Both the position numbers and the translations under genes were made by a program. 33,253 nt of DNA from Chlorobiaceae bacterium (GTDB lineage Bacteria; Bacteroidota; Ignavibacteria; Ignavibacteriales; Ignavibacteriaceae), in contig PNNF01000024.1 in NCBI GenBank assembly GCA_013824085.1, positions 1 to 33,253 of the forward strand. The letters run 5' to 3'. This document shows positions 12,291 to 28,720 of this stretch, piece after piece; within the stretch, counting starts at the first letter, position 1; every line of letters begins with the position of its first letter. The notes below the pieces were generated by a model, which was not told where the DNA came from, ran no database searches, and saw only the letters and a list, made by a program, of their open reading frames with translations.

Positions 12291-12432
12291 ATCTCTAAAG
12301 TTTTTTAGAACTTGTTACTTATTCTGAGAACGTGGATAGAAAAATTTAGTGGAATTGTTGAATCGTTGAATCGTGTATTAGTTCCAATTGTCGCCAGTGA
12401 CTCCAACGTTCTACAAAAACAAAAAAGTAACT
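12291..12432. other. Spacer before the tandem repeats
   Basis: No gene seen. It contains a degenerate fragment (GAACGTGGATAGAAAA near 12328) of the repeat tail found downstream, and a direct repeat GTTGAATC at about 12357-12374. No intrinsic terminator for typA is obvious. Confidence 0.4.
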
Positions 12433-13115
12433 GTCATGCTGAAGGAGCGCAGCGACTGTTTCCCTAAAGTGAAATAAAAAGAATCTCTTTGACCTTATCG
12501 GCTCTTCAAGAAAAAATTACAATTGCTCGCGAAGACGCTTTGCCTCAAATAAAACTTTTAATCCATCTTCCCAATCGTCACAACAGTCCCAACAAAAAAC
12601 AATAGAACGCGGATGACGCGGATAAAAAACGGATAATCGCGGATAGAAAAAAAATAACGATTGTCATTCTAAAGAAGCGCCGCGACTGTTTCCCTAAAGT
12701 GAAATAAAAAGAATCTCTTTGACCTTATCGGCTCTTCAAGAAAAAATTGCAATTGCTCACGAAGACGCTTTGCCTCAAATAAAACTTTTAATCCATCTTC
12801 CCAATCGTCACAACAGTCCCAACAAAAAACAATAGAACGCGGATGACGCTGATAGAAAGCGGATAATCGCGGATAGAAATAAAATTGACGATTGTCATTC
12901 TGAAGGAGCGCAGCGACTGTTTCCCTAAAGTGAAATAAAAAGAATCTCTTTGACCTTATCGGCTCTTCAAGAAAAAATTGCAATTGCTCGCGAAGACGCT
13001 TTGCCGCAAATAAAACTTTTTATCCATCTTCCCAATCGTCACATCTGTCCCAACAAAAAAAAATAGAACGCGGATGACGCGGATAAAAAACGGATAATCG
13101 CGGATAGAAATAAAA
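12433..13115. repeat. Three tandem copies of a ~230-base noncoding unit
   Basis: Copies start at GTCATGCT (12433), GTCATTCT (12663) and GTCATTCT (12894), giving periods of 230 and 231 bases. Most of each unit is identical between copies; differences are scattered single bases. Each unit has two parts: a GTCATTCTGAAGGAGCGCAG-type element with AAGAATCTC downstream, and a tail with repeated CGCGGAT words (GAACGCGGATGACGCGGAT, AACGGATAATCGCGGATAG). Inside each unit GCGAAG-ACG-CTTTGC (or a variant) can form a small hairpin. A minus-strand open frame across the array repeats itself with the unit and lacks any start signal, so I regard the array as noncoding. Words of the first type (GTCATTCTGA...AAGAATCTC) are widespread intergenic repeats in many bacterial genomes. 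No transposase is nearby. Confidence 0.85.
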
Positions 13116-13156
13116 ACAGAACGGCAGTTATTCAAATGAGCTTGATTCTAAAGGGT

Positions 13157-13561
13157 TTAAACGCTTTTCCTAATGCTTTCAGCGTTACAATAAAGGCAGG
13201 TACAAGATTCGTAAATTTCATCGTAGCCATAGTCGATAGACAATTCTTCACATGGATTTATATTCCGACTCGCAATTAACCAGAGTGAGTTTTCATCATT
13301 GTCAATAATTTCGCAGTTGTAATTGCAATCGTGGTTAATGAATTTTATTATTGGTTCATTCGAAGCATCAATATAATTATCACCATTCCAAAAGATATAA
13401 ACATTTCCATCATTTTCTTCACGCTTAATACATTCTGATTCAGAGATGACTTCACCCTTTATTAATAATATCTTTTCACCCTCTTTGATAAAAATATTTG
13501 TAAAGATTCCAAAACCGTGAATTCCTGAATCTGAAACTTGCAGAAAATTTTCTAAACTCAT
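13157..13561 (-). CDS. SET-domain protein (putative lysine methyltransferase)
   Basis: A 134-residue protein consisting almost wholly of a SET domain, the SAM-dependent protein-lysine methyltransferase fold. Features in order: SDSGIHGFGIF (the GxG SAM-binding strand, residues 10-20), FINHDCNYNCE (residues 74-84, the NHxCxxN SAM and substrate motif), NPCEELSIDYGY (103-113, with the catalytic Tyr of ELxxDY) and a post-SET cysteine cluster CTCLYC (Cys120, 122, 125), which with Cys79 could bind zinc as in eukaryotic enzymes. The gene starts 2 bases after the secreted-protein gene downstream of pfkA. It has no signal peptide, so the substrate should be cytoplasmic; none can be named. All key residues are present. 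It ends 42 bases from the repeat array. Confidence 0.88.
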   Translation of the reverse strand: MSLENFLQVSDSGIHGFGIFTNIFIKEGEKILLIKGEVISESECIKREENDGNVYIFWNGDNYIDASNEPIIKFINHDCNYNCEIIDNDENSLWLIASRNINPCEELSIDYGYDEIYESCTCLYCNAESIRKSV

Positions 13562-13563
13562 AT

Positions 13564-14010
13564 TTAAGAACCAGCCCGCAATTTACTTCTCTTTACAAGT
13601 ATGCCCACCAATTTTTCCATAAAAGAATTTGGAGTTATCGGAAAAATATATTTTTGTTCTTCTGAATATTTTAATAAATCATAAGAAAATCTTTTTATCT
13701 CTTTATTTGCCGGGTCATAATAGACGGCTTCTTTAAGTCCGAATGCATTTGCTTTTAAGTTTACTGTATAAAGAGTTTTCGTTCTCATAATGTTATCAGA
13801 AATTTGTTCGAGCTTCAAGACTGGTCTGTGCAGCTCTAAGATCCAAACATCAAATGGGGAAGTAGTAACAGTATCAATTTGATTAGCGTCGTACCAAATT
13901 TTTTGTCTCTCTTCTACAATTAATGGTTTCCAATCATGATTTTCCCTTTGCGGAAAAATCATGACGGAACCAAAAAAGAATATTATAAAAAAAATCGAAT
14001 TTATTTTCAT
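13564..14010 (-). CDS. Small secreted protein, possibly surface-adhesin E-like
   Basis: A 148-residue protein whose start I place at 14010: this ATG has AAGGAT seven bases upstream and begins a good signal peptide (MKINSIFFIIFFFGSVMIFPQ); the longer open frame to 14082 would run into pfkA and bury the signal. The mature part contains IWYDANQIDTV, FDVWILEL and YTVNLKANAFGLKEAVYYD, an order of short strands reminiscent of the surface-adhesin E domain found in small secreted bacterial proteins. The likeness is modest and the function unknown. It sits 22 bases after pfkA and 2 bases before the SET gene, so the three are probably one transcript. Confidence 0.7.
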   Translation of the reverse strand: MKINSIFFIIFFFGSVMIFPQRENHDWKPLIVEERQKIWYDANQIDTVTTSPFDVWILELHRPVLKLEQISDNIMRTKTLYTVNLKANAFGLKEAVYYDPANKEIKRFSYDLLKYSEEQKYIFPITPNSFMEKLVGILVKRSKLRAGS

Positions 14011-14032: not shown

Positions 14033-15145
14033 TTAATCACCAAAACAGATTCCAAGATCGCGAGCCGTTTGTAATGTGTCACTATTTAATTTTACCATTT
14101 TTGTTTTGTTTGCAACTTCATCAAGCTGCACATATTTCATGCCTGCTGGCGGATCGTATGCAACCATCACTCCAGAATGTCCTTGTTCTAAAGCACGCAC
14201 AGCAGCAGCTCCAAATCGTAGTGATAGAAGTCTGTCAAATGTAGTTGGGCTTCCACCGCGTAGCAAGTGTCCAAGAATTGCAGCACGAACTTCAAGTTTG
14301 CAAAGATTGCTTAAGTCTCGTGCAATTTTTTCTCCCGCTCCTCCGAGTCTTTCAGATTTACCAGCTTCATGTTCGATAATAGAAATATCTCCACCTTTAG
14401 ATCTAGCGCCTTCTGCAACCACAACAATGCAATAATTTTTTGACTTTGAAACTTTGTTGTTAATAAAATCTGCAATTACGTTTTTGTCATAAGGAATTTC
14501 AGGAATTAGAATCACATCTGCAGAAGCGGAAATTCCTGAGTTGAGTGCAATCCATCCTGCGTATCTTCCCATTACTTCAACGACCATTATTCTGCTGTGT
14601 GATTGAGCTGTGGTGTGCAATCGGTCAATACATTCAGTAGCGAACGAGACTGCAGTATCAAATCCGAAAGTCATTGCAGTTTGTTCTAAATCGTTGTCAA
14701 TAGTTTTAGGAACACCAACAACGCGCAATCCTTTTTTTGCAAAAAGATTTGCCATTGTCAAAGAGCCATCACCACCAATAGCAATAAGTGCATCGATATC
14801 ATTTCGTTTGAAGCCCGCCATAATTTCATCTGAACGATCTACTTCAACAATTTTACCATCAGTAGTTTTCATCGGAAATCTAAAAGGGTTTCCTCTGTTT
14901 GTAGTTCCAAGAATTGTTCCGCCATCACTTGTAATAGTTCTAACTAAATCGTAAGTGAGTTTAATCAATCCTGTTCCGTTTGGGAACTGATCGAGATGAT
15001 AAATTCCGTTGTATCCTTCGCGAATACCAATTATCTCCCAGCCTCTGTTGAGTGCTGAGATTACTGCAGCTTTAATAACTGCGTTTAATCCGGGGGCATC
15101 TCCACCGCCTGTGTTAATCGCAATTTTTTTTATTTCACTTCTCAT
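14033..15145 (-). CDS. pfkA: 6-phosphofructokinase (Gly104/Lys124 type)
   Basis: Phosphorylates fructose 6-phosphate in glycolysis. It has 370 residues, slightly longer than E. coli PfkA. Seen: TGGGDAPGLN near the N-terminus, IGGDGSLTMA, the catalytic PKTIDND and VVEVMGRYAGW, and GHLLRGGSPT. At the two positions that separate donor classes, GGDGS carries Gly (E. coli Gly104), the ATP-type residue, while PKTIDND carries Lys (E. coli Gly124), the residue of pyrophosphate-dependent and certain ATP-dependent enzymes. From family knowledge the Gly/Lys combination is usually ATP-dependent, but this should be treated as inference. GAGAG lies just before the ATG. It follows the OB-fold-like lipoprotein gene by 99 bases. 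Confidence 0.95.
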   Translation of the reverse strand: MRSEIKKIAINTGGGDAPGLNAVIKAAVISALNRGWEIIGIREGYNGIYHLDQFPNGTGLIKLTYDLVRTITSDGGTILGTTNRGNPFRFPMKTTDGKIVEVDRSDEIMAGFKRNDIDALIAIGGDGSLTMANLFAKKGLRVVGVPKTIDNDLEQTAMTFGFDTAVSFATECIDRLHTTAQSHSRIMVVEVMGRYAGWIALNSGISASADVILIPEIPYDKNVIADFINNKVSKSKNYCIVVVAEGARSKGGDISIIEHEAGKSERLGGAGEKIARDLSNLCKLEVRAAILGHLLRGGSPTTFDRLLSLRFGAAAVRALEQGHSGVMVAYDPPAGMKYVQLDEVANKTKMVKLNSDTLQTARDLGICFGD

Positions 15146-15244: not shown

Positions 15245-15946
15245 TTATTCAGCTTTAATTTTTGCTTTTTCAACAATATATTTATAAACATATCCAGAAC
15301 CAAAATCTTTGTTAGTAACCAAAGTTCCTTCTACAGTAACTATTTGTCCGACTGTAACTAAATCGTTTGAAGTAGCAACAATACTGAACGCATCGCCTGC
15401 TGCAGTTCCATCTTGAATATGAATCCAATTTAGATCCATAATTCCTTCATTTACTTTAACTGCTTTACCTCTAAATTTTACAGTTTGTCCATTTAAAGAT
15501 TCAGCACCAGTAATCATTTCAGCCACTGTTTTACCGCCTGCTAAAGGTGTTATCACTTCAGAAATCTTTTCTGTTTTAGATGCTTGAGAATGCATTGTTC
15601 CCATCACATCTTTACTTATGCCAAGCTCTGGAGTTTTAGAAGCATCTTCAACAAAAAGAAGCGAAGCAAAAGTTTTATTTAATTCTTCACTCTTAAAATC
15701 TTTCATCTCCATTGCTCTTGAAAAATAAATGGTCTCACCTTTTTTTACTTCCATCGGTGTAGTTGCCAACCAAATCTCGACGCCATTTTCTTCACCTTCT
15801 ACATATGTGTAACCTGCTGCATCTTGTGTACTAACGACTGTAACTGCTCTTACTCCTGCAGGAAGTTCTTTCGGAGTTTCTTTTTCTTTACCACAACCGA
15901 TTAATACAAAGGACATTAACAATAAAAAACTAATGAATAATTTCAT
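15245..15946 (-). CDS. OB-fold-like lipoprotein
   Basis: A 233-residue envelope lipoprotein: signal segment and lipobox FVLIGC with Cys18. The C-terminal part (about 135-233) reads as an OB-fold: AEMITGAESLNGQTVKFRGK, then NWIHIQDGTAAGDAFSIV and GQIVTVEGTLVTNKDFGSGY, the pattern of the small nucleic-acid-binding-like OB domains often found in exported proteins next to cytochromes. The N-terminal part (30-130) includes GYTYVEGEENGVEIWLATTPMEV, a similar short beta domain. The ligand is unknown; the likeness to NrfJ-type proteins is only suggestive. It is divergent from rplU across 168 bases. Confidence 0.7.
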   Translation of the reverse strand: MKLFISFLLLMSFVLIGCGKEKETPKELPAGVRAVTVVSTQDAAGYTYVEGEENGVEIWLATTPMEVKKGETIYFSRAMEMKDFKSEELNKTFASLLFVEDASKTPELGISKDVMGTMHSQASKTEKISEVITPLAGGKTVAEMITGAESLNGQTVKFRGKAVKVNEGIMDLNWIHIQDGTAAGDAFSIVATSNDLVTVGQIVTVEGTLVTNKDFGSGYVYKYIVEKAKIKAE

Positions 15947-28363: not shown

Positions 28364-28655
28364 AGAACTCGGATTTTTTAGATCAGCGATTATCAGCGGT
28401 TGGAAATCAGCGTCATCAGCGTTCCAATTTAGCAGTAAGAGAACGCGGATTTAAATCAGCGATTATCAGCGTTTGAAAATCAGCGTCATCAGCGTTCCAA
28501 TTCAGCAGAAATAGAACGCGGATAAAGCGGATGCTACGCAACGCGGATTTAAATCAGCGATTATCAGCGTTTGAAAATCAGCGTCATCAGCGTTACAATT
28601 CAGCAGTAAGAGAACGCGGATAAAGCGGATGCTGCGCAACGCGGATTTAGTTCAG
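28364..28655. repeat. Cluster of short repeats with CGCGGAT and ATCAGCG words
   Basis: Three units begin with ATCAGCGATTATCAGCG at 28382, 28455 and 28553 (spacing 73 and 98; the extra 25 bases are a GATAAAGCGGATGCTACGCAACGC-like insert), and a fourth partial unit follows at about 28613. Each reads ATCAGCGATTATCAGCG, a short gap, ATCAGCGTCATCAGCGTTCC, then AATTCAGCAG and GAACGCGGAT. Read on the other strand the core is GAACGCTGATGACGCTGAT and CGCTGATAATCGCTGAT, the same pattern as the tail of the 12433-13115 units with G changed to T at the same place. The copies are not CRISPR: no unique spacers. No coding capacity. Confidence 0.8.
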
Positions 28656-28720
28656 CAGCCAAAAAAATTGACACAGAAATAAAAATTTCATCAGGAAGGA
28701 ACTTTATTTTTACAAAAAAA

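Follow-up and report, generated by a model that had tools for sequence, protein, structure and literature searches.

A compact, putative SET-domain lysine methyltransferase of Ignavibacteria and its usual but separable exported partner

The window, a stretch of 33,253 nucleotides that forms the entire contig C24 of a 2.65-Mb Ignavibacteria genome (75 contigs, 98% complete), contains a minus-strand locus in which pfkA is followed by a gene for a small exported protein, named here SM, and then by a gene for a SET-domain protein. The genes and motif codons of this locus are as follows.

13157..13561, minus strand: SET-domain protein of 134 aa with an ATG start; Pfam SET (PF00856); acidic
13187..13204, minus strand: CTCLYC codons, residues 120–125, the post-SET cysteines; seen by sequence conservation, of low confidence in the fold model
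13229..13249, minus strand: EELSIDY codons, residues 105–111; aligns with EELTYDY of human KMT2A
13313..13336, minus strand: NHDCNYNC codons, residues 76–83; aligns with NHSCEPNC of human KMT2A
13502..13519, minus strand: HGFGIF codons, residues 15–20, the SAM-binding GxG; aligns with HGRGLF of human KMT2A
13564..14010, minus strand: SM, 148 aa, protein-E/Adhesin_E-like fold; the usual upstream partner of SET
14033..15145, minus strand: pfkA, 6-phosphofructokinase (Pfam PFK, 1.2e-96); a neighbour in this lineage

The mechanical open reading frame of SM begins at GTG 14082 inside pfkA, and the start was taken instead at the ATG from which the N-terminus resembles a signal peptide. The original prediction, whose range of 13157–14010 spans both small genes, had placed a small secreted protein 2 bases before SET and pfkA at 24 bases or less. 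The first spacing was confirmed; the second came to 22 bases, measured from the pfkA stop to the SM start, and the identity of PfkA was confirmed by its Pfam match. No terminator-like site was found between the pfkA, SM and SET genes and, given this and the 22-base interval, read-through from pfkA into the pair would be plausible in this genome. Past SET lies a tandem repeat with a unit of 231 bp in three head-to-tail copies (12432–13116, 94% matches), followed by typA on the opposite strand. A 27-base stretch of this repeat, TGTCATTCTGAAGGAGCGCAGCGACTG, has eight occurrences in the genome with up to three mismatches, three of them here, and the reversed control gave 0. A second tandem array with 73- and 98-bp units (28377–28656) shares the word CGCGGAT with the repeat beside SET. 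Upstream of pfkA, a 233-aa lipoprotein-like open reading frame (15245–15946) gave no Pfam match at E ≤ 0.01.

The 134-aa protein was the only SET match in its own genome at E ≤ 0.001, and the full Pfam profile was covered with 65.3 bits against a curated cut-off of 22.4 (7.4e-18). Residue conservation was counted in 49 aligned members, excluding L080 (26% identity). G16 and G18 of GxG, N76, H77, C79, Y111 of ELxxDY and C120 were found in all 49, C122 in 48, and C83 and C125 in 47 each; the window's protein has every one of these invariant and near-invariant motif residues. Residues 76–83 presumably make up the cofactor pocket and supply the first zinc cysteine (C83), and Tyr111 is what we take to be the catalytic Tyr. 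The post-SET cysteines are predicted zinc ligands; their motif is CxCx2C here, differing from the CxCx4C spacing of KMT2. A conserved stretch between the SET motifs, with the approximate consensus ECERREEEENNVYIFWNGD, looks like a signature of this SET subfamily. The family members are 41–61% identical to the window's protein, so the open reading frame is not a chance one.

The predicted model of the SET protein had a mean pLDDT of 85, with block means of 86–96 up to residue 110. Residues 111–134 were modelled poorly (block means 64, 59 and 44); the catalytic Tyr and the post-SET cysteines fall here, and these features therefore rest on sequence conservation. The best Foldseek matches of the model were KMT2/MLL SET domains (E 2.6e-08, about 30% identity), and KMT2D matched the SET family profile at E 4.4e-21. 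The human KMT2/MLL domains (PDB 4z4p, 2w5y, 7w67) have the SET fold, GxG, NHSC and ELxxDY in common with the window's protein, which differs from them in being a free-standing protein of 134 aa with no partner domains, in its CxCx2C motif and in having Ile in place of Tyr before DY. The protein is strongly acidic, with 25 Asp/Glu against 9 Lys/Arg and a net charge of −16, which is also the median of 60 members. The intact SAM-binding, catalytic Tyr and post-SET Cys residues first read from the DNA were thus borne out by the Pfam match and by conservation in the 49 members, and the protein is very probably an active lysine methyltransferase.

The model of SM was confident (pLDDT 92), and its N-terminus appeared signal-peptide-like by eye. 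The fold was that of Haemophilus protein E, with Z 9.5 and an rmsd of 4.6 over 112 (residues 22–146) at 8–9% identity. Protein E filled the top five entries of the VIA-align comparison (Z 8.2–9.5), followed by TdeM in sixth place (8.0), and Foldseek matched SM to protein E with E 0.024 and prob 1.00. Among 35 SM members (35 of 36 were used for A1, L049 being excluded), 8 matched Pfam Adhesin_E (PF16747) at E ≤ 0.01, the best of them at E 1.9e-6, and the SM of L065 reached 23.5 bits against a cut-off of 23.7. The window's own SM gave no Pfam match and lies outside Adhesin_E as so defined. The shared fold does not imply adhesion and says nothing firm about the function of SM.

The arrangement of the two genes was compared across 50 loci, left from 52 after L077 and L082 were dropped as copies of L037 and L042; the near-identical L049 and L056 were both counted. 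In 36 of the 50, SM is the gene directly upstream of SET and shares its strand. The gap from SM to the first possible SET start ranged from −56 to +5 and was exactly −4 in 17 of the 36, which is a common sign of translational coupling; SET would usually be co-translated with SM. Among 164 genomes of the order, 78 have a strong SET match and 94 have SM at more than 100 bits (of 113 genomes with any SM match, those with weaker ones were excluded; G128, a weak match of another subfamily, was excluded from the SET list). Both genes occur in 57 genomes, adjacent in 48 and apart in 9, while 21 have only SET, a few of these cases sitting at contig ends, and 37 have only SM. In 20 loci where SM has no SET beside it, clpS, an M20 peptidase or a transglycosylase comes directly after SM in 17, and in 2 of these 20 genomes SET sits elsewhere. 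The same clpS, M20 peptidase or transglycosylase clusters follow SET in other genomes (one representative of each was Pfam-named), and several SET-only genomes, among them L139, L143 and L145–L147, keep the same flanks around SET without SM. For A2, 44 of 49 were used (L037, L055, L056, L064 and L073 excluded). When adjacency was placed on a tree of SET proteins (80 rows, 135 columns; L035 and L055 excluded), 11 changes were needed, and well-supported branches force at least 5 of these. A single ancestral SET–SM locus, with repeated losses of one gene or the other, makes the simplest history. The pair is an old one whose members are nonetheless separable.

The linkage to pfkA behaved differently. 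The original prediction had proposed conserved linkage as a check, and pfkA was found within 6 kb of SET in only 8 of the 50 loci; it stands directly upstream of the SM–SET pair, with no listed open reading frame between, in two loci, the window and L051. On this count pfkA linkage was rejected as a functional clue, and SET is not a conserved member of a pfkA operon.

Matches to the SET subfamily were obtained in 79 of the 164 genomes of the order (78 strong), in three families. The remaining 85 gave no match, so the modification made by SET would not be essential. In a phylum sample of 395 genomes, strong subfamily matches were found in 11 more genomes of three other families; among the raw tally of 155 are many weak hits on other SET proteins. 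The statement that SET proteins are uncommon in bacteria did not hold in the group examined, where 33 of 59 relatives had a Pfam SET match. The named relatives with the locus carry designations such as Ignavibacteria, Ignavibacteriales, Melioribacteraceae or Bacteroidetes and are mostly metagenome genomes; they include Stygiobacter electus 09-Me, which we take to be a cultured strain. Second, divergent or partial SET-like matches were obtained in a few genomes that also have the main one, at L080 (G013:C2), L081 (G018:C7), G020:C35:68276-68446 and G143:C370. In a sister SET clade (L172–L182; families f39, f24 and f51), SM was not adjacent in the 11 loci read. The SET gene there is divergent from its neighbour, identified as surE in the single member examined, and the spacing of the post-SET cysteines is altered in several members.

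The reading that we prefer is that of a compact, cytoplasmic, SAM-dependent SET lysine methyltransferase, mainly vertically inherited in Ignavibacteria and usually co-translated with SM, with an endogenous substrate that is probably basic; taken whole, it stands about an even chance of being right. The protein has no hydrophobic N-terminus by eye and would stay in the cytoplasm, where it would methylate an endogenous protein, and an endogenous, cytoplasmic substrate is likely. Ile occupies the position before DY, where other SET enzymes carry the F/Y switch, and for this reason the enzyme may add more than one methyl. The substrate would be basic, because SET is strongly acidic and nucleoid proteins are the targets in two prokaryotic precedents, of which one is disputed; that it is a nucleoid-type basic protein in particular is a tentative and rather unlikely proposition. 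One precedent, Go1-SET of Methanosarcina, is archaeal and was compared by description; in the review PMC3980110 it is reported to act on the organism's own chromosomal protein MC1-alpha. The other is chlamydial cpnSET, for which methylation of the H1-like protein Hc1 is reported in the same review (PMC3980110). This result is disputed, as passages of PMC3980110 and PMC6426960 report that NUE did not methylate Hc1.

The report on cpnSET was the reason to look for Hc1. The neighbours of SET had been described as not being chromatin proteins, which is right for those examined; elsewhere the genome encodes an Hc1-type histone-H1-like protein (L197, G000:C1:101862-102023, 67.6 bits) as well as HU-family proteins. 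Hc1 was found in 142 of the 164 genomes of the order, and its presence was not associated with that of SET (68/78 with SET vs 73/85 without). The alignment columns of Hc1 were compared between these 68 SET and 73 SET-less genomes, i.e. 141 of the 142, G128 being left out. Lys42 was kept in 66/68 SET genomes vs 52/73 SET-less ones. This position was chosen on the first 80 genomes (38/40 with SET vs 28/40 without, p 0.006) and then tested on the held-out 61 (28/28 vs 24/33, p 0.0026, uncorrected for ancestry). When genus-by-state units were used and labels were permuted within family, the family-wise p for Lys42 was 0.046 over the variable columns and 0.0076 over nine Lys columns. Leu14 showed an association with SET at least as strong as that of Lys42 (family-wise p 0.026), and Asp50 was also strongly associated in raw counts. 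A p for Leu14 and Lys42 taken as a pair was set aside as evidence, the pair having been picked with both columns in view. Lys41 went in the opposite direction in raw counts (36/68 with SET vs 53/73 without, p 0.02), and lysines 20, 35 and 59 are nearly invariant with SET present or absent and cannot discriminate.

Position 42 of Hc1 is Arg in 10 of 10 genomes of the sister clade (f39 and f51) that have both proteins, which contradicts Lys42 as a universal SET site. Furthermore, the SM tree of 46 genomes offered 8 independent SET contrasts in all, only 5 of which fall on supported branches; 0 or 1 of these 5 shows a difference at Lys42, so the association can be accounted for by common ancestry. 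Among single candidates for the substrate, Hc1 is the most specific, though weakly supported, and Lys42 as the site is doubtful, at roughly one chance in ten. Equally doubtful is the fuller account in which SET methylates Hc1 at or near Lys42 and gives the bacterium its own lysine-methylated chromatin protein; in that account, loss of SET would have freed Lys42 and Leu14 to change, and the site would have moved in the sister clade to a lysine beside 42.

A different kind of cytoplasmic substrate, namely a translation factor, a ribosomal protein or the electron-transfer flavoprotein EtfB, would agree with the preferred reading in most respects and differ in what is methylated. Such proteins are targets of seven-beta-strand methyltransferases elsewhere. 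Near SET, typA was found within 6 kb in 13 of 50 loci, etfB in 8 and clpS in 6. Synteny alone is no proof of a substrate, however, and the clpS–etfBA flank also occurs in the SET-less genome G001. EtfB was rejected as a candidate, because G001 has a recognition-loop region that reads like that of seven SET genomes (one more SET genome gave no match to the search string). A substrate of this general kind is still a real possibility, though we would put it at little more than one chance in three.

The regular position of SM immediately upstream of SET, with overlap of start and stop in many of the 36 loci, would also fit an enzyme–substrate pair in which SM is methylated before export. The two genes nevertheless occur without each other in the numbers of genomes given above, and SM looks exported while SET does not. 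No lysine of SM is invariant, and the best conserved, Lys78, was kept in 30/36 SET-linked vs 15/18 SET-less SM proteins examined. Since no conserved SM lysine tracks SET, SM is unlikely to be its substrate, and we hold the pairing to be improbable.

The preferred reading of a cytoplasmic enzyme with an endogenous target was also weighed against that of a secreted effector which, as in Chlamydia and Legionella, would have its targets in the histones of a eukaryotic host or grazer. Histone methylases are the solved structures closest in fold, and the characterised bacterial SET proteins tabulated in the review PMC3980110 were mostly assayed on eukaryotic histones. The chlamydial cpnSET/NUE, compared by description, is likewise a bacterial SET protein in a cell with an Hc1-type protein; it is longer, and nuclear-localisation and type III secretion signals are reported for it in that review, with signals at residues 206–208 (PMC3980110). 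The window's protein has only 134 aa, no second domain and an N-terminus that by eye is not hydrophobic, and there was no secretion gene among the Pfam-named neighbours. Furthermore, the gene is present in nearly half of the order sample, and the named records are mostly environmental metagenome genomes with no host in their titles. An effector role is accordingly very improbable.

As for origin, a branch with 94/88 support in the tree of SET proteins separates 72 rows, the subfamily together with the very divergent L081, from human KMT2A and KMT2D and six further SET proteins of Bacteroidota; the tree is thin, with few columns and long branches (as warned by the program) and with only two eukaryotic rows. 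Because of this separation and the recurring locus, long and mainly vertical inheritance in Ignavibacteria is favoured over recent transfer, and transfer from eukaryotes could not be kept as the default explanation. A phage or defence origin was rejected, as viral contigs (from a pattern scan) were without a relative and PADLOC gave no match. Although the best solved relatives of SET are eukaryotic, a recent acquisition from a eukaryote, its function not settled, is barely credible against that branch, a locus that recurs with either gene absent in places, a spread over three families of the order and three others of the phylum, and the bacterial origin of such genes argued in the review PMC3980110.

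These results together describe a well-conserved prokaryotic SET protein, by its sequence a methyltransferase, whose exported partner is unusual, though separable. In the open-access literature searched, no report on this SET subfamily was found. Very little is known about the endogenous substrates of bacterial SET enzymes, and the literature covered centres on secreted effectors. As SET is present in some and absent from other close relatives, Stygiobacter electus 09-Me being among the relatives concerned, lysine methyl-proteomes can be compared with and without the enzyme, and Lys42 of Hc1 offers one specific, falsifiable candidate site for such a comparison.
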